DNA of 44,341 bases from an uncultured Eubacteriales bacterium. Its GTDB lineage: Bacteria; Bacillota; Clostridia; Saccharofermentanales; UBA5734. The first letter of the stretch is position 1. Each line of letters begins with the position of its first letter. A program made the position numbers and the translations under genes. Of this stretch, positions 8,144-42,008 are shown one piece after another. The notes beneath the pieces are model-generated. The model worked only from the letters and a program-made list of their open reading frames with translations, was not told the origin of the DNA and did no database searches. Where the stretch lies: the NCBI GenBank assembly GCA_903835065.1, contig CAILLO010000036.1:1-44341 (forward strand), in the 5' to 3' direction.

Positions 8144-8428
8144 TCAGTTCGCGTAGGAGAGGACGCGGGGGGAACTGTCGCTGTCTCCGGGGGTCAGCGC
8201 GACTTCGACCACGTGGGTCAGGACGTCGACGTAGCTGAAGGAGACCATTTCCTGATAGCTGTTCTTGCGGTTGCAGCGGACGGTGAAGAGGTTGGGGTAG
8301 CAGCTCTCGAGGATTCCCTCCTGGATGATCGTTCTCTTTCTTCCTCCGCTCGAGCGGAGCCTCACGTTCTTTCCGATGTTGGCTTCCAGGTCCTTCTTGC
8401 AGTTCTCCAGCTCGTTGCGAATGATCAT
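8144..8428 (-). CDS. veg: Veg family protein
   Basis: The 94-residue product matches the Veg family of Bacillota in length and pattern: a short N-terminal helix, then the basic stretch GKNVRLRSSGGRKR and a beta-rich core ending SYVDVLTHVVEV. In Bacillus subtilis Veg is very strongly expressed and affects biofilm matrix genes. Its biochemical role is not settled. GGAGGTAA precedes the ATG. The gene has a near-consensus promoter of its own about 95 bases upstream and its own terminator, so it is a single-gene transcription unit. The leader of about 85 bases contains short GC-rich hairpins. Confidence 0.92.
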   Translation of the reverse strand: MIIRNELENCKKDLEANIGKNVRLRSSGGRKRTIIQEGILESCYPNLFTVRCNRKNSYQEMVSFSYVDVLTHVVEVALTPGDSDSSPRVLSYAN

Positions 8429-8520
8429 GTTGCGTTACCTCCAAGCGTACTCCAGGGGGACCACCTATCAGAGGCTGGGGTGCCGTGAGCGGCTGTACGG
8501 GCGGGTTTCCCGCACCTCAG

Positions 8521-8549
8521 AGTATACCGCTTCATCTGGCTGAAGTCAA
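8521..8549 (-). promoter_or_regulatory. Strong sigma-A promoter of veg
   Basis: On the minus strand TTGACT (8544-8549), a 17-base spacer and TATACT (8521-8526) make one of the best promoters in the window. This matches the known strength of the veg promoter in Bacillus subtilis. Confidence 0.8.
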
Positions 8550-8569
8550 CCGGAGTGCACCATCGGTTG

Positions 8570-8578
8570 TGGTATAAT
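8570..8578 (+). promoter_or_regulatory. Extended -10 promoter of the beta-lactamase-like gene
   Basis: TGGTATAAT is an extended -10 with a perfect hexamer, about 50 bases before the GTG start at 8630. It lies back to back with the veg promoter. Confidence 0.6.
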
Positions 8579-8629
8579 TTGCCTGTCCGCACCATATCTT
8601 GTGCCTGAAGCATCCACAAGGAGCGTAAC

Positions 8630-9904
8630 GTGAAGAAGAACTCGAATGGGTCCGAACCTGCCCCGCAGCCCCTGCCGGAGCGTCCTTCGGGACGCGAGCC
8701 CCGCTGGGAGCGTGCCGTTTCGGAGCCCGTCGCCGACTCTTCCCGCACCGTCTCCGCGCCCGCGCGGGACGACCTGCGCGGCCTCGACCTGCACCGCGAA
8801 TGGGTGGCGCCCGACGCCGCGCAACGTCGCGGACGCCTTCGCCGCCGGGTGGTCGCGATCGGCGTGACCGTCCTGCTCCTGGTGGTCGTCGGCCTCGGCC
8901 TGTTCGCGCTGCTCGCGCACTGGAACCCGTTCGCCGGATGGCCCGGTCGAACGACCTCCACCGCGACGCCCTCGTCCGCCCCGACCGCGACGAGCGCTCC
9001 CGACGCCACCGCGACGCCCGACGCGACCGCCACGCCCGACCCCGGCCTGTCCGCCGCAGACCGCGCCGCCCTGTTCGCAGACCTCCAGAAGAACCTCGTC
9101 GCGCTCGTCGGCACCCAGCCCAAGGGGCGCTACGCGATCTACTACCGCAACCTCGAGACCGACGAGACCTGGGGTTACCATGAGACCGACCCGTTCGTCG
9201 CGGCGAGCTCGATCAAGCTGGGCATCAACACGTACCTCTACGACCGCATCAAGGCCGGAGAGATCTCCCTCGACGAGATGCTGACCTTCGACAAGCGCGC
9301 CTACCCGACCGGCGACCTCGAGTACGGGACCGGCACGATCCAGAACGAGGCCAACGGGATGCAGCACAGCGTCCGCGACACGGCCAGGCTGTCGATCCGG
9401 GTCAGCGACAACTGCGGTATCAACATGATCATCCGCCGCCTCGGCGGCATCGAGGGGATCGATGCCGCCTATCTCAAGCTCGTCGGCGGCACGGTCGATT
9501 ACCGGACCAGCGTCACCTACACGGACTACGCCGGCACGACGCGCACCGGGCGCAACCGGACCAGCGCGATCGACCTCGCCTCGATGGCGGCCGACCTCTA
9601 CACGCGCTACACCGCCGACCCGACGGCTTACCAGCCCCTGATCGACGACCTCGAGAACACGGAATTCGGCTTCAGCATCCCGAACCTGCTTCCGAAAAGC
9701 GTCGCCGTAGCGCACAAGATCGGCACGAACGACCTCTACAAGACCGAGAACGACGTCGGCATCGTCTTCGCGTCCGAGCCTTTCGTGATCTGCGTGACGA
9801 CAGAGACCTCCAGCGCGTCGAAGGCCCACGCCTTCACGTCGCAGGTCGCGAAGCAGGTCTACGACTTCGTGGAGACCGCGGCGACAGGCGTGGCGCCGGG
9901 CTGA
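8630..9904 (+). CDS. Membrane-anchored class A beta-lactamase-like serine hydrolase
   Basis: The 424-residue protein has a charged cytoplasmic N-terminus, one transmembrane helix at about residues 80-102, a Thr/Pro/Asp linker, and an extracellular domain from about residue 145. The serine-enzyme motifs are visible: S193-S-I-K196 (SxxK), S259-D-N261 (SDN), and H-K363-I-G365 in the KTG position. This is the order found in class A beta-lactamases and related D-Ala peptidase-like proteins. The KTG Thr is replaced by Ile, so whether it hydrolyses beta-lactams is doubtful. It could act on cell wall or be a sensor. AAGGAG precedes the GTG start. Confidence 0.83.
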   Translation: MKKNSNGSEPAPQPLPERPSGREPRWERAVSEPVADSSRTVSAPARDDLRGLDLHREWVAPDAAQRRGRLRRRVVAIGVTVLLLVVVGLGLFALLAHWNPFAGWPGRTTSTATPSSAPTATSAPDATATPDATATPDPGLSAADRAALFADLQKNLVALVGTQPKGRYAIYYRNLETDETWGYHETDPFVAASSIKLGINTYLYDRIKAGEISLDEMLTFDKRAYPTGDLEYGTGTIQNEANGMQHSVRDTARLSIRVSDNCGINMIIRRLGGIEGIDAAYLKLVGGTVDYRTSVTYTDYAGTTRTGRNRTSAIDLASMAADLYTRYTADPTAYQPLIDDLENTEFGFSIPNLLPKSVAVAHKIGTNDLYKTENDVGIVFASEPFVICVTTETSSASKAHAFTSQVAKQVYDFVETAATGVAPG

Positions 9905-10074
9905 CCATTCGTGCCCCCAGGGGGCACGAGCCCGCTTCCGGGACCGGTTAGCTGATAGGATTTTCACGGTTTCAGCAAGCCGCTCCATCGCGCCTCGACT
10001 CCTGCTCGGCGCGGTCGGAAGCTCCACTCGTGCCCCCAGGGGGCACGAGCCCGCTTCCGGGACCGGTTAGCTGA
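9905..10074. repeat. Pair of 51-bp direct repeats with internal palindromes
   Basis: The segment 9905-9955 recurs at 10024-10074 with one mismatch. Each copy contains a perfect palindrome with arms TCGTGCCCCC and GGGGGCACGA around one base (9909-9929 and 10028-10048), followed by the GC-rich stretch CCGGGACCGG. Between the copies, TCACGGTTTCAGC (9964-9976) is the exact inverse of GCTGAAACCGTGA (10070-10082), which starts in the tail of copy two. The region lies between convergent genes, so it could act as a bidirectional terminator or be a REP-like element. Confidence 0.8.
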
Positions 10075-10084
10075 AACCGTGACC

Positions 10085-11059
10085 TTATAGATCGATTCCT
10101 TCGAAGCCCTCGCCGAGCACTTCCCTCGAATCCACGACGATCATGAACGCCTTCGGGTCGATGCCCTTAATCAGGCGCTTCAGGGCCGACACCTGGTTCT
10201 GCGGCAGCACGCACAGGAGGACCTCCTTCTGTGTGCCGGTGTACATGCCCTGCCCGTGCAGGCCGGTGATGCCGCGGTCGAGGTCCTCCATCACGCGCAC
10301 GGCGATGTCGCTCGAGCGGTCGGAGATGATGATCGCGGCCTTGGTGTAACCGAAGCCCTCGATCACGAGGTCGGTCAGCTGCTGCGTCAGATAGAGGGCG
10401 ATTCCGGAGTACATGGCCAGCAGCACGCTGGGACCGGGCTCGGTCGCGTAGGCGATCGCGGCGCACAGGACGACGAAGACGTCCATCATCAGGATGAACT
10501 GCCCGAGGCTGAAGCGACGGTGGTGCTTCTTGATCACCTTGGCGAGGATGTCGGTGCCGCCGGTCGTGAAGCCGGCGCGGAAGATCATGCCGAGGCCGAC
10601 GCCGTAGACGATGCCGCCGAAGATGCAGTAGATCAGGGGGTCGGGCAGGCCGACGTCGAGGGGGCGGTTGATGTACTCGTTGTAGAAGCGCGTGAAGGTC
10701 GCCGCGGTCAGGTCGATCGCGGTGGAGTAGAGGACGGTGCCGATCAGCGACTTGATCACGAAGACGCGGCCGAGGTGGCGCCAGCCGAGAATCAGCAGCG
10801 GGACGTTCAGGATCATCACCATGACGCCGAACGGCAGCAGCCCGCCGCGGTCGGTGAGCTGGTAGACGATCGACACGAGGCCGCTGACGCCGCCCATGGT
10901 GAGCTTGAGCGGCACGTAGAAGACGTTGACGGCGACGGCGCACGCCAGCGACCCGCCGACCATCAGCAGGGCCTCGACGGACAGGCGCCTGCCGACCCCT
11001 CGGGTGCCTCCGGGGCCGGGCGACAGGGCGAGCAGGAGCTTGCGGAACTTCTCCTTCAC
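10085..11059 (-). CDS. YitT family membrane protein (DUF161 with C-terminal DUF2179)
   Basis: The 324-residue protein has about six transmembrane helices in its first 240 residues, including the repeated glycine-rich motifs MGGVSGLVSI and TTGGTDILAK typical of YitT proteins. A soluble C-terminal domain (about residues 240-320) contains AAIIISDRS and HGQGMYTG, the DUF2179 signature. The family is common in Bacillota, and no transport substrate is firmly known. I chose the GTG at 11059 because GGGAGG stands five bases upstream. The frame is open to 11476 but would run over the SRP RNA. A minus-strand TATAAT at 11171-11176 is the likely -10. Confidence 0.9.
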   Translation of the reverse strand: MKEKFRKLLLALSPGPGGTRGVGRRLSVEALLMVGGSLACAVAVNVFYVPLKLTMGGVSGLVSIVYQLTDRGGLLPFGVMVMILNVPLLILGWRHLGRVFVIKSLIGTVLYSTAIDLTAATFTRFYNEYINRPLDVGLPDPLIYCIFGGIVYGVGLGMIFRAGFTTGGTDILAKVIKKHHRRFSLGQFILMMDVFVVLCAAIAYATEPGPSVLLAMYSGIALYLTQQLTDLVIEGFGYTKAAIIISDRSSDIAVRVMEDLDRGITGLHGQGMYTGTQKEVLLCVLPQNQVSALKRLIKGIDPKAFMIVVDSREVLGEGFEGIDL

Positions 11060-11170
11060 GGGAGCCTCCCTCGAACCGGGGATTCGGGGTGTCAGGGGCG
11101 ATCGGGTCGCCGAAGCGTCGGACATGCGGGTCGAGAAGCGCAAGGACGCGTTTTGCGGGCGTTCGCCTCG

Positions 11171-11176
11171 ATTATA
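11171..11176 (-). promoter_or_regulatory. TATAAT -10 box of the YitT gene
   Basis: A perfect minus-strand TATAAT lies about 110 bases before the GTG start. The -35 (TACCGC at 17 bases) is weak. Confidence 0.4.
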
Positions 11177-11248
11177 CCGCTCGCCCCGCACGGGCGGTAC
11201 CCCCGCGGCGGAGGAGCGGGCGGGCCGGGCGGCATCGCGCCGCGTCCC

Positions 11249-11278
11249 TTGCCGGGTGGGCTCCGCGGAGGGTATAAT
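11249..11278 (+). promoter_or_regulatory. Promoter of the SRP RNA
   Basis: TTGCCG (11249-11254), an 18-base spacer and a perfect TATAAT (11273-11278) place a start at about 11285, just before the RNA body. Confidence 0.65.
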
Positions 11279-11298
11279 GACGCGGTATCCCGGATTCC

Positions 11299-11438
11299 GA
11301 ACTGCCCGGTCTGCTTCCGGGGGTGGGTCCTGTGCGATGCGGCCCGTGAACTCCGTGAGGTCCGGAAGGAAGCAGCGGTAAGCGGTCCACCGCAGGTGCC
11401 GCAGGGAAGCCTGCCTCCGGACGCAGACCGGGCAGGTC
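11299..11438 (+). ncRNA. ffs: Signal recognition particle RNA, small bacterial type
   Basis: The universally conserved SRP core AGGTCCGGAAGGAAGCAGC is present at about 11360-11378, followed by the complementary arm with GCAGGTGCCGCAGGGAAGC. The ends pair exactly: CTGCCCGGTCTGC (11302-11314) with GCAGACCGGGCAG (11423-11435). The molecule is about 140 bases, so it lacks the long Alu-like 5' domain seen in Bacillus SRP RNA. With Ffh it forms the particle that delivers nascent membrane proteins. Its position directly upstream of dnaX matches other Bacillota. The exact processed ends are not known. Confidence 0.9.
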
Positions 11439-11465
11439 GGCGTACGAGGGGAAGGAGGCGCGAGG

Positions 11466-13304
<1,839 letters not shown>

Positions 13305-14366: not shown

Positions 14367-14501
14367 GTGCTAGACCGGCACGGCACTTGAGTCGCTGAGC
14401 GTCTCCATCCTCTACGGGCCGTATCGCGCCGTTTTCTACGCTCCCCCGATGCCCGAAGCCTCGGTCATCGTCCGCGTAGAACGGCCCGCGGGGGATGCGT
14501 G

Positions 14502-14529
<28 letters not shown>
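14367..14529. repeat. 31-bp direct repeat of the oppF 3' end flanking a long hairpin
   Basis: The last codons and stop of oppF (14499-14529) are repeated at 14367-14397 with one mismatch. Between the copies lies a long hairpin: GCCGTTTTCTACGC (14428-14441) pairs with GCGTAGAACGGC (14474-14485) with a two-base bulge, and an inner CGATG/CATCG stem. This could be the 3' structure of the opp transcript plus a small duplication. Confidence 0.65.
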
Positions 14530-23530: not shown

Positions 23531-23562
23531 GCCGACGCCCACCGGCGACGGCTCCCCGCGGA

Positions 23563-30464: not shown

Positions 30465-34047
<3,583 letters not shown>

Positions 34048-34072
34048 ACGGATCGGGCTTTCCAACAGTTTC

Positions 34073-34110
34073 AAGAACGGGGATGTTTCACGTGGAACAT
34101 CCCTGTTCTT
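34073..34110. terminator. 38-bp inverted repeat with parS at its centre (gyrB terminator)
   Basis: AAGAAC-G-GGGATGTT pairs with AACATCCC-T-GTTCTT, with two G-U pairs, around CACGTG. On the plus strand it lies 25 bases after the gyrB stop and ends in GTTCTTCATG. The central 16 bases are a parS. Confidence 0.7.
34084..34099. promoter_or_regulatory. parS site (perfect)
   Basis: TGTTTCACGTGGAACA matches the ParB/Spo0J consensus TGTTNCACGTGNAACA fully. It is embedded in the inverted repeat after gyrB. Confidence 0.92.
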
Positions 34111-34239
34111 CATGTCACGAGAAATCCGAAATACGATCAAGAAGCCCTTCATTTCGTTTTTTTGCATTCCGCATATCATGACAATACGACAATGTGAAAA
34201 CAGATTGGAATTGTCGCGGAATCGTCCGGAAATCGCGGA

Positions 34240-34255
34240 TGTTCCACGTGAAACA
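34240..34255. promoter_or_regulatory. parS site (perfect), flanked by GCGG/CCGC
   Basis: TGTTCCACGTGAAACA is a full consensus parS. GCGG and CCGC one base out on each side extend the symmetry. It stands 103 bases upstream of the parA start. The rest of 34111-34357 holds no gene that I can support. Confidence 0.92.
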
Positions 34256-34288
34256 ACCGCCTTTGGGATGCGCAGAACGCAGGGCCTA

Positions 34289-34297
34289 TGCTACAAT
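34289..34297 (+). promoter_or_regulatory. Extended -10 promoter of parAB
   Basis: TGCTACAAT is an extended -10 about 61 bases before parA. The -35 is weak. Confidence 0.45.
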
Positions 34298-34357
34298 GCA
34301 GGCGTGTATTCGATGCCGGCGCCCGGTCCACAGGGGTCGAGCGGAAGGGAGCGGTTC

Positions 34358-35134
34358 ATGGCGGAAATCCTCGCGATCGTCAACCAGAAGGGCGGGGTCG
34401 GAAAGACCACGACGACCGTGAACCTCGGAGCCGGATTGGCCGTCAAGGGCAAGAAGGTGCTGCTCGTCGACGTGGACCCGCAGGGAAATGCGACAAGCGG
34501 CTTGGGCTTCGACAAGCGCGCATTAGAGAAGACGACTTACGATGCGCTCATCAATGAGGAACCAATCCAGGAGATCATTCGGCCGACGGGTCGCCGAAAC
34601 TATTCGATCTGCCCTTCGAACATCCAGCTGGCCGGTGCGGAAGTGGAACTCGTCGGCGTGATGGCGCGCGAGAACTGCCTGAAGCGGGCGCTGGCAGGAG
34701 TCCGGAACGATTACGACTACATCCTGCTCGATTGCCCGCCATCCCTCGGCCTGTTGACCGTGAACGCGCTGACGGCGGCCGACGGCGTCATCGTGCCCAT
34801 CCAGAGCGAGTACTACGCGCTGGAAGGCCTGACCCAGCTCATGGAGACGATTTCGATCGTGCGCCGCCATTTGAATCAGGAGCTCGAGGTCTTCGGCGTG
34901 GTCATCACGATGTTCGACAGCCGCACGCAACTGTCGGGGCAGGTCGCAACCGAAGTGAAGAAGCATTTCGGGGACAAGATGTTCCGCACGATGATTCCGC
35001 GCAACGTGCGGCTGAGTGAAGCGCCGAGCCACGGCAAGTCCATCGGGGAGTACGACCCGAAGTCCAAGGGCGCGGAATGCTACGCCTCGCTGGCCCGCGA
35101 AGTGCTGGGCCGGTCGGGCGCAAGGAAGAGGTGA
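34358..35134 (+). CDS. parA: Chromosome partitioning ATPase ParA (Soj)
   Basis: ParA is the DNA-binding ATPase that moves ParB-parS complexes apart and in Bacillus also regulates DnaA. The 258-residue product has the deviant Walker A KGGVGKTT at about residues 10-17, VDVDPQGNAT (Walker A'), DYILLDCPPSLG, and the C-terminal GEYDPKSKGAECYASLAREV. The start at 34358 is supported by GGGAGCGG upstream. Longer upstream codons do not match. It is five bases from parB. Confidence 0.96.
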   Translation: MAEILAIVNQKGGVGKTTTTVNLGAGLAVKGKKVLLVDVDPQGNATSGLGFDKRALEKTTYDALINEEPIQEIIRPTGRRNYSICPSNIQLAGAEVELVGVMARENCLKRALAGVRNDYDYILLDCPPSLGLLTVNALTAADGVIVPIQSEYYALEGLTQLMETISIVRRHLNQELEVFGVVITMFDSRTQLSGQVATEVKKHFGDKMFRTMIPRNVRLSEAPSHGKSIGEYDPKSKGAECYASLAREVLGRSGARKR

Positions 35135-35139
35135 ACCCG

Positions 35140-35991
35140 ATGTCGAAGGGACTGGGGAAGGGTCTGGGCGCCCTGCTGCCCGACGAGGCGATGACGGAAG
35201 CCATGAGGGGTTCGGTCGTCGACCTCCGCATCAACGAGATCCAGCCGAACAGCGACCAACCCCGTCGGATCTTCGACAAGGAAAAGCTCGAAGAGCTGGC
35301 CGAGTCGATCCGCTCGAACGGCGTCATCCAGCCCGTCATCGTGCGCAAGGAAGGTTCGGCGTACCGCATCGTCGCCGGCGAGCGCCGCTGGCGGGCTGCG
35401 CGACTGGCGGGCCTTACGGCGATTCCCGCGATCGTCCGGGAGCTGACCGACCTCGAGGTACTGGAGTACGCCCTGATCGAGAACATCCAGCGCCAGGACC
35501 TGAACCCGATCGAAGAGGCGCAGGCCTTCGACAAGCTCATCAAGGAACATGGCCTGACCCAGGAAAAGCTCGCGGGGACCGTCGGACGCAGTCGTCCTGC
35601 CATCGCGAACTCCCTCCGCCTGCTGAACCTGTCCGAAGAAGTCCGCATGTTCGTGGAGACCGAGGAACTGTCGGCCGGCCATGCGCGCGCGCTGCTATCG
35701 CTGACGCACGCGGACACGCAGAAGAAGGCCGCGCTACTCGTGATCCAGCGGAATCTGAGCGTCCGCGAGACCGAACGCCTGGTGAAGAACTTCGAAGCGG
35801 TGAAGAAAGCCCGGAAGAAGGGGGACGCCGCCTACGAGAGCAGCCTGCACGAGGTCGAGGGCCGCATCGCCAGCAGTCTCGGGACCAAGGTCCACCTGAA
35901 CGACCGCAACAAGAAGGGGTCGATCGTCATCGAATACTACTCGCTCGACGACCTCGAAAGACTGATCGACCTGCTGACGAAACCGCGCTGA
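35140..35991 (+). CDS. parB: Chromosome partitioning protein ParB (Spo0J)
   Basis: ParB binds parS, spreads as a CTP-dependent clamp, and loads SMC. The 283-residue product begins SKGLGKGLGALLPDE (ParA-stimulating Arg/Lys patch region), then the CTP-binding motifs GVIQPVIVR, GERRWRAARLAG, and ENIQRQDLNPIEEA, the helix-turn-helix LTQEKLAGTVGRSRPAIAN, and a C-terminal dimer domain ending EYYSLDDLERLIDLL. GAGGTGA precedes the ATG at 35140. At least two perfect parS sites sit nearby. Confidence 0.96.
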   Translation: MSKGLGKGLGALLPDEAMTEAMRGSVVDLRINEIQPNSDQPRRIFDKEKLEELAESIRSNGVIQPVIVRKEGSAYRIVAGERRWRAARLAGLTAIPAIVRELTDLEVLEYALIENIQRQDLNPIEEAQAFDKLIKEHGLTQEKLAGTVGRSRPAIANSLRLLNLSEEVRMFVETEELSAGHARALLSLTHADTQKKAALLVIQRNLSVRETERLVKNFEAVKKARKKGDAAYESSLHEVEGRIASSLGTKVHLNDRNKKGSIVIEYYSLDDLERLIDLLTKPR

Positions 35992-36101: not shown

Positions 36102-36192
36102 GGAGAGATGGTCGAGCTGGTTTATGGCACCGGTCTTGAAAACCGGCGTAGATGAGAGTCTACCGTGAGTTCGAATCTCACTCTCTCCGCCA
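36102..36192 (+). tRNA. tRNA-Ser (anticodon TGA)
   Basis: A class II tRNA with acceptor stem GGAGAGA/TCTCTCC, anticodon stem CCGGT/ACCGG with loop CTTGAAA (TGA), a long variable arm, T-loop TTCGAATC, and encoded CCA. It reads UCA and related serine codons. Confidence 0.95.
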
Positions 36193-40946: not shown

Positions 40947-42008
40947 ATGTCCGAATCCGTCGAACATCCCCGCAAGGCGAACATCCACGACGTCGCGCGC
41001 AGGGCGGAGTCCTCGCCCGCCACGGTGTCCCGCGTGCTGAGCGGCAGCTCGTACCCGGTCAGCGAGGCCATGCGCCGCCGCATCGTCGAGGCCGCCGCCG
41101 AGCTCAACTACACGGCCAACGCGATCGGACGCATGCTCAAGACCAACGACACGCACGAGATCGGCGTAATCGTGCCCACGATCGCCAACCCCTTCTATGC
41201 GCAGATCGTCGTCGGCATCGAGAAGGAAGCCAAGGAGCGCGGATACGGCATGCTGCTGTGCAACACGCTGCGCGACGCGACCGACGAGGACCGCTACGTC
41301 GAGACGCTGTTCGGCAAGCAGGTCATGGGCATCGCCCTGTCCTCCGTCGCCGTGGACCACGCTCGGCTGCGCGCCCTCCAGCGCAAGGGCCTGAAGGTCG
41401 TGTTCATCGACCAGGAGCCGTCCGATGCGAACAGCGGCAAGGTCGGTCTCGACTTCATCCGCGGCGGCATGCTCGCGGCCGCGCACCTGCTGTCCAACGG
41501 CCACCGGTCCTGCGCGTACTTCACCGCGCCGCTCGACAAGCGCAGCCGCGTCGAGGTTCTCGAGGGCTTCCGGCTCGAGCACGCGCTGCGGGGCCGTTCG
41601 CTCGACCCGCGCCACGTGCTCGTCGACGAGCGCGAGGAGGAGAGCGAGGAGAGCGTCTACGAGTTCGAGTGCGGGCGCCGCCTCGCGCGCCGGTTCCTCG
41701 CCCTGACCGGCCGCCCCACCGCCGTGCTGGCCGCCAACGACATGATCGCCATCGGCGCGATGCAGGAGTTCGCCGCGCGCGGCGTGTCCGTGCCCGACGA
41801 CGTGTCGGTGGTCGGCTACGACAACATCATGCTCGCGTCGCTGGTGCGGCCGGGCCTCACGACGGTCGACCCGCGGTCGAACGAGATCGGCCGCCTCGCC
41901 TGCCGGGCGCTCGTCGACATGATGGAGGGGGAGACGCCGGAGATCCGGCACGTGAAGGTGGAGCCCGTCCTCGTCGAGCGCGGGTCCGTGAAGCGTCCGC
42001 GCGCCTAG
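40947..42008 (+). CDS. LacI family transcriptional regulator
   Basis: The 353-residue protein has the LacI helix-turn-helix NIHDVARRAESSPATVSRVLSG (cut at residues about 13-34), the hinge helix AIGRMLKTN, and a periplasmic-binding-protein-like sensor domain with IGVIVPTIANPFYAQIVVGIE and PDDVSVVGYDNIMLASLVRPGLTT. AGGGGTGGAG precedes the ATG. It likely represses itself and may control the GH4 gene 1 kb downstream, but no copy of its operator was seen there. Its stop shares bases with the convergent AraC gene. Confidence 0.93.
   Translation: MSESVEHPRKANIHDVARRAESSPATVSRVLSGSSYPVSEAMRRRIVEAAAELNYTANAIGRMLKTNDTHEIGVIVPTIANPFYAQIVVGIEKEAKERGYGMLLCNTLRDATDEDRYVETLFGKQVMGIALSSVAVDHARLRALQRKGLKVVFIDQEPSDANSGKVGLDFIRGGMLAAAHLLSNGHRSCAYFTAPLDKRSRVEVLEGFRLEHALRGRSLDPRHVLVDEREEESEESVYEFECGRRLARRFLALTGRPTAVLAANDMIAIGAMQEFAARGVSVPDDVSVVGYDNIMLASLVRPGLTTVDPRSNEIGRLACRALVDMMEGETPEIRHVKVEPVLVERGSVKRPRA

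Follow-up and report, generated by a model that had tools for sequence, protein, structure and literature searches.

Among the structured repeats described from bacteria, REP elements carry a GT(A/G)G head before a palindrome of 20-40 nt and usually exceed 100 copies per genome. Integron attC sites lie directly after stop codons and follow a plan of stem, unpaired spacer, stem and variable end, with RYYYAAC at the 5' side and GTTRRRY at the 3' side of the simple sites. In the passages of PMC3049150 that deal with them, the BOX repeats of Streptococcus pneumoniae are small, interspersed and modular, have extensive predicted secondary structure, form tandem internal modules, insert into one another and can provide a gene with its stop codon by overlapping its very 3' end (36 of 58 CDSs with an overlap). 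Bacterial MITEs (ERIC/RU-1, RUP, Correia, RPE) are characterised, in the relevant parts of PMC2229807, as foldback elements of less than 200 bp that are presumed to be moved in trans; most of them are AT-rich, bear terminal inverted repeats and have TA at their ends.

The duplicated palindrome described here consists of a full and a broken copy of a dispersed hairpin repeat, termed family A, which shares with BOX its modular build, predicted structure, tandem modules, nesting and the supply of stop codons to genes, a likeness of behaviour. Unlike BOX, its copies are GC-rich, the stop lies within a CTAG-like terminal word and a mismatch motif stands between covarying stems in most copies. With the MITEs it shares its short length, its foldback structure and a presumed movement in trans, but it is GC-rich rather than AT-rich (G+C 0.61-0.71 in 10 members) and has asymmetric, CTAG-like ends. 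The attC sites were considered because of the stem-spacer-stem plan, which family A resembles along with the placement after stops. They were then set aside, as the core word order is not RYYYAAC...GTTRRRY (the 5' arm has GTTAGRC-like words and the 3' arm GCCTTG) and copies stand beside apparent housekeeping genes. In the open-access literature, searched by title and passage, no CTAG- or stop-anchored structured repeat of such make was found.

In the window (the whole 44,341-nt stretch of DNA analysed), two 51-bp copies at 9905-9955 and 10024-10074 are 98% identical, with one mismatch and starts 119 bp apart, and both hold a 21-bp palindrome of odd length with a central A. An exact inverted 13-mer joins 9964-9976 to 10070-10082, and the inverted repeat extends beyond it, from 9964-9986 to 10060-10082. 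The two copies, their palindromes and the 13-mer had been pointed out in an earlier note on this DNA, as had the location between convergent genes, which was confirmed: a Beta-lactamase2 (PF13354) serine hydrolase (8630-9904, plus strand, TGA stop at 9902-9904) faces a gene for a YitT_membrane and DUF2179 protein (10085-11476, minus strand), whose TAA stop (10085-10087, minus strand) lies within the terminal CTATAA of the element. Exact 25-mers recur in the window only here and in one 27-bp match between 15335 and 16354, and the repeat is far above chance.

The 51-bp piece, however, was wrongly taken as the unit. The true unit, read on the minus strand, is about 132 bp and runs from ATAG at 9955-9958 to ATAG at 10087-10090. 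The starts of the 51-bp copies are 119 bp apart, not 132, because the truncated copy has a deletion of 13 bp. Two units, one full and one truncated, fill the 180 bp from stop to stop. Read on the minus strand, the sequence runs CTATAAGGTCACGG-TTTCAG-CTA-ACCGG ... GCGG-CTTG-CTGAAA-CCGTGAAAATC, then CTAT, then the broken second unit, which is without 13 bp near its start and without its 3' part. The full copy (9959-10090, minus strand, including one terminal CTAT, the other being 9955-9958) was identified by matches to the covariance models R1 and R2 (9964-10079, minus strand), by its fold and by the empty site in a sister species. The truncated copy (9905-9958, minus strand), recognised by the 51-bp repeat and its sequence, is fused to the TGA that ends the serine hydrolase gene and gave a weak R1 match (9841-9960, minus strand, E 0.0075). 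Within the full copy, the 3' arm of stem 1 (9964-9976, the exact 13-mer) pairs with the 5' arm at 10070-10082 in the minus-strand reading. The 3' arm of stem 2 (9977-9986) adjoins the TTG motif and has its partner within 10057-10069, where the CTA motif stands in the minus-strand reading. Inside lie a small hairpin CGCGCC...GGCGCG (9989-10013) and a long hairpin TCGGAAGC..GCTTCCGG (10015-10060) that encloses the palindrome CTCGTGCCCCCAGGGGGCACGAG (10027-10049). The arrangement would be explained by one insertion at the junction of the convergent genes and a tandem duplication of the insert, after which the outer copy lost parts; the duplication looks recent, because the 51-bp copies are so nearly identical.

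Elsewhere in the window, Rfam models placed a bacterial large SRP RNA at 11262-11447 and two tRNA genes at 36102 and 36203. Repeats at 23557, 34078 and 34234 are close to the ParB site parS, and two of them lie between gyrB and parA/parB genes (31534-35991), suggesting an origin region.

A search of the host's own 2.5-Mb genome (G000) at the DNA level found diverged copies at C25:76450, C36:92659, C36:44373, C9:14201 and the window (E down to 3.8e-40), with end fragments at C21:12047 and C9:65436. Covariance models confirmed these five copies and added C1:166782 and C9:65433, giving seven members, some of them damaged, and one chimaera, a count that is a lower bound since the first look scored 150 of 5488 candidates in one search. 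The C36:92659 copy holds a hairpin of another family (family C), the C36:44373 copy has a foreign 5' arm, the C9:14201 copy has lost its 3' arm and the C21 copy is a chimaera with another hairpin family. Four clear members (on C134, C72, C94 and C107) and a fifth, weaker one (C293, E 0.008) were found by covariance model in the sister species G001. A DNA-level search of 58 genomes had missed these sister-species copies, returning the host genome and one weak match in G016 (E 0.007). Across 39 genomes, the covariance models gave matches at E<=1 in six, namely the host, G001 and four genomes with one match each (G006, G019, G033 and G038; E 0.06-0.70), the last four being taken as chance; none was found at this threshold in the remaining genomes. 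One copy was without a match in phage, plasmid and viral sequences, as was a 17-base core in viral contigs. Two stretches returned by a core-word scan of genome contigs, from which the host's own records were possibly excluded, had no palindrome around them and were likewise taken as chance. The genome search proposed in the earlier note turned up dispersed, diverged copies at gene ends, and the unit is not unique to this place, as diverged copies exist both elsewhere in the genome and in G001. Nested copies (family C inside families A and B) and tandem copies are present, and some family A copies lie between tandem genes.

At the window locus, G001 has the same convergent genes with their stops 6 bp apart and no element. 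Its junction reads ...GAGATC TAG CTTCCG TCA..., with CTAG at the YitT stop, and the protein ends are alike (EGIEI in G001 and EGIDL here; TAATGVAPG in both). Between pgm and mutS2 (named by resemblance), the stops are 36 bp apart in G001 versus 118 bp here, where the C1 insert lies, and the end of the second gene, GVTIAEL, is identical in the two species. At the groEL locus, the unaligned stretch between aligned blocks is 234 bp in G001 versus 426 bp here, with the junctions placed only approximately; the element, which holds a family C hairpin, sits by eye downstream of the stop and ahead of a hairpin that has its equivalent in G001. The element is thus absent from G001 at three of three loci compared. 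Insertion here, instead of loss in G001, is the simpler reading by parsimony on an unrooted comparison.

The first TAG of the element is the stop of the upstream open frame, at offset 0, in six of eight family A copies of the host (a count that includes the C21 chimaera) and in a family B array, with upstream open frames of 180-497 codons. In the window copy the upstream stop is the TAA within CTATAA, the C9:65433 copy is inverted and carries a TAG stop at its other end, and both ends of the C1 copy are the stops of the two convergent genes. Seven of the eight copies are sense to the upstream gene, at its stop. Among six family C copies tested, a stop starts 1-6 nt before the searched word in five and none was found in one; among five G001 copies tested, a stop lies 6-12 nt before the word in three, the frame enters the element in one and none was found in one. 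In G001, a frame of 511 codons (to the locus end) enters the element at L125 (C94:2107-2209) and stops inside, so that the element may add a C-terminal tail.

As 14 of the 38 stops are TAG when window ORFs are selected with a GC3 rule, six TAG in eight is only mildly unusual (p 0.03), and the exact offset is a stronger fact than TAG usage. The word CTAG is strongly avoided in the window (13 versus 57 expected), and the 13 present comprise six stop codons, three sites inside ORFs and four elsewhere. With CTAG both rare and about half stops, a CTAG-seeking element filtered by selection could reach stops without aiming at them. The heads of the element are CTAG, TTAG, CTAT or CTATAG. Terminal words are equal on both sides in four of the eight family A copies (CTAT, CTATAG and, twice, CTAG) and differ in the other four, in one of them through an apparent later deletion. 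The ends are asymmetric, with no symmetrical inverted repeats: the distance from CTAG to the stem is 1 nt on one side and 6 nt on the other in the consensus, so the arms are inverted but subterminal and offset. Some inserts have direct repeats, of 9, 12, 15 and 31 bp (12 bp at C9:65433 and 15 bp at C1:166782), lengths that do not fit a duplication of fixed size. At window positions 42005-42008, a LacI-type and an AraC-type gene converge on a single CTAG that gives both of them their TAG stop. Such a shared-CTAG arrangement, as CTATAG, may be what the C1 element entered.

The 191-nt region of the window repeat folds at -112.1 kcal/mol versus -73.2 (sd 4.6) in 200 shuffles (z -8.5). The members have a common fold of two covarying stems, separated in most copies by a CTA/TTG mismatch motif and followed by one or two hairpins. 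In alignment A4 (10 members, seven from the host and three from the sister species, kept from 12 loci with L135 and L137 below the cut, the latter at E 0.16 with model R2), 89.5% of cells in 39 pairs are paired, 21 of 39 pairs are changed on both sides and the covariation score is 0.287, each of these values being reached by 0 of 500 shuffles. Further pair types (33) were reached by two of 500, and slid controls gave 35-45% paired. A4 was fitted to the structure of the first model, which came from five A4 members, and this favours it; the first alignment itself (five members, MAFFT) already had double changes in 6 of 33 pairs. Stem 1 is the weakest helix, with 70% of cells paired.

Such covariation could also arise from an RNA function or from quasi-palindrome correction. 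On the first of these readings, family A would be a functional RNA in 3' UTRs (an mRNA stabiliser, or a processing or protein-binding site), spread by duplication and kept for transcript structure, and the sense orientation of seven of the eight host copies would agree with it. On the strand that continues the upstream gene, G.U (G.T) pairs outnumber A.C pairs (18:5, p 0.011), and the predicted fold of this strand is the more stable one in 9 of 10 members, with a difference of 0.2 to 12.8 kcal/mol. However, the pair asymmetry loses significance without one shared column pair (11:5, p 0.21), and the strand asymmetries are suggestive at most, so that the structure may matter as RNA, as single-stranded DNA or by way of palindrome correction. 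Furthermore, the host genes seem unrelated (GroEL, MutS2, YitT and an oxidoreductase, all but YitT named by resemblance), the element is absent from the three compared loci of G001, and the window repeat has no Rfam match even at E<=10. A functional RNA is accordingly considered an unlikely explanation. No known RNA family in Rfam release 15 was above threshold at the window repeat or at 11 other loci, one of which (the L022 copy) overlaps a sub-threshold sX14 match (25.1 bits versus a gathering score of 80, E 0.82).

Hairpins as strong and GC-rich as these, placed where two genes converge, would also suit a bidirectional transcription terminator that had been duplicated. No hairpin followed by a T-run was found in 8400-11600, where shuffles led us to expect 1.0, in a scan whose scope stops short of Rho-type and tailless terminators, and an intrinsic terminator was rejected on this ground. 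The groEL element stands upstream of a second hairpin that, by eye, G001 also has, and copies occur between tandem genes as well, leaving this reading improbable.

The earlier note had also offered a REP-like element, here taken as a REP/BIME of a RAYT (IS200/IS605-like) system. Family A is indeed palindromic and extragenic, with a short conserved word at the hairpin foot, and in the passages of PMC2817692 on REP and BIME elements complementary changes likewise keep the fold, distribution is species-restricted and BIMEs are modular and form mosaic arrays. The resemblance did not extend to length, copy number, head word or enzyme: the unit of about 130 bp is several times too long, the seven to eight copies found (a lower bound) fall far below the usual number, the head is CTAG-like, and Y1_Tnp (PF01797) had no match in the host genome (completeness 98.47), with 5 of 14 control genomes positive. 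A REP origin is thus very unlikely. A tandem duplication confined to this place, of a spacer found nowhere else, to which the near identity of the window copies might point, is ruled out by the diverged copies on C1, C9, C25, elsewhere on C36 and in G001.

Family A is instead probably a non-autonomous mobile hairpin family of about 90-135 bp, MITE- or BOX-like, that uses rare CTAG-like sites. The dispersed copies, the covarying fold in two species, the empty sister loci, the tandem and nested copies and the stop-flush starts were all observed. The suggestion of a small non-autonomous element in the earlier note agrees well with the gene-end copies, the empty sites and a length of about 130 bp, too short for a transposase. 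Short dispersed copies with empty sites in relatives are a feature of MITEs, here with polarity unrooted, but no strict MITE label is applied because of the asymmetric ends, the GC richness and the uncertain duplication. A complete copy is one folded hairpin consisting of a CTAG-like word, stem 1, the mismatch motif (5'-YTR / 3'-TTG), stem 2, a long hairpin and, in the host species, a short one. An enzyme acting in trans, presumably recognising the folded stem, would move the copies and insert them at CTAG-, CTATAG- or CTAT-like words; a search of the host genome for Y1 transposase (PF01797), the only enzyme covered, found no candidate. Insertions within genes would be selected against, and since about half of the CTAG words left in the window are stops, the survivors would sit at gene ends, where the word kept at the junction would leave the host gene its stop.

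Model R2, built on family A, also gave three matches to family B, in the C47 array (E 3.4e-7 to 6.3e-5), and matched two of seven family C sources (L083, E 7.7e-9; L025, E 7.2e-4), with no match at E<=0.5 in L079, L082, L085, L086 and L090. The array (L084, C47:82806-83158 of the host) consists of about 3.5 family B hairpin units with a period of about 105 bp, and its start falls exactly on the TAG that ends a TPM-domain-like gene (named by resemblance). Family C hairpins lie inside family A at the groEL locus (L019) and inside family B on C21 (L078), placed between GGC and the next base without clear duplication. In a hand table of 17 elements of the three families, 16 have YTR and one has CCA between the stems on the 5' side; on the 3' side 13 have TTG, with TTT, TTA, TCG and TAG once each. 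Compensating changes affect the bases of stem 2 and, less cleanly, those of stem 1. In a duplex reading, the middle pair of the motif is non-standard in all 17, a figure valid for this set only, as its elements were chosen since the motif could be placed in them. Several family C rows are near-identical, and the ungapped layout leaves stem 1 partly unpaired in about seven rows. Outside the table stand C36c, C9a and C21 (one arm lost or chimaeric), L086, L090, short fragments, the C1 copy (L138), from which the motif is absent, and a window insert at 14398, in which none was seen. This insert (14398-14498, 101 bp) is a hairpin on the minus strand between 31-bp direct repeats (14367-14529) that differ by one mismatch and contain the last part of an OppF-type ABC gene (PF00005/PF08352), its TAG stop included. 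It gave a weak R2 match (14400-14500, minus strand, E 3.5e-4) and may be a distant relative, distantly like family C.

That the mismatch is retained while the stems around it covary freely suggests that a fold, rather than a sequence, is recognised. Families A, B and C might, quite tentatively, form one superfamily of gene-end transposons, read as a folded single strand via the mismatch (T.T, T.C or C.A inside YTA/TTG) and inserted at stops by an as yet unnamed enzyme. If so, a mobile element would reproduce the stop codon of its host gene and thereby spare the gene. The findings add an apparently undescribed family of structured repeats, and they offer a simple test of why such repeats keep so close to gene ends: an element that seeks CTAG would frequently run into stops in a genome where this word is avoided.
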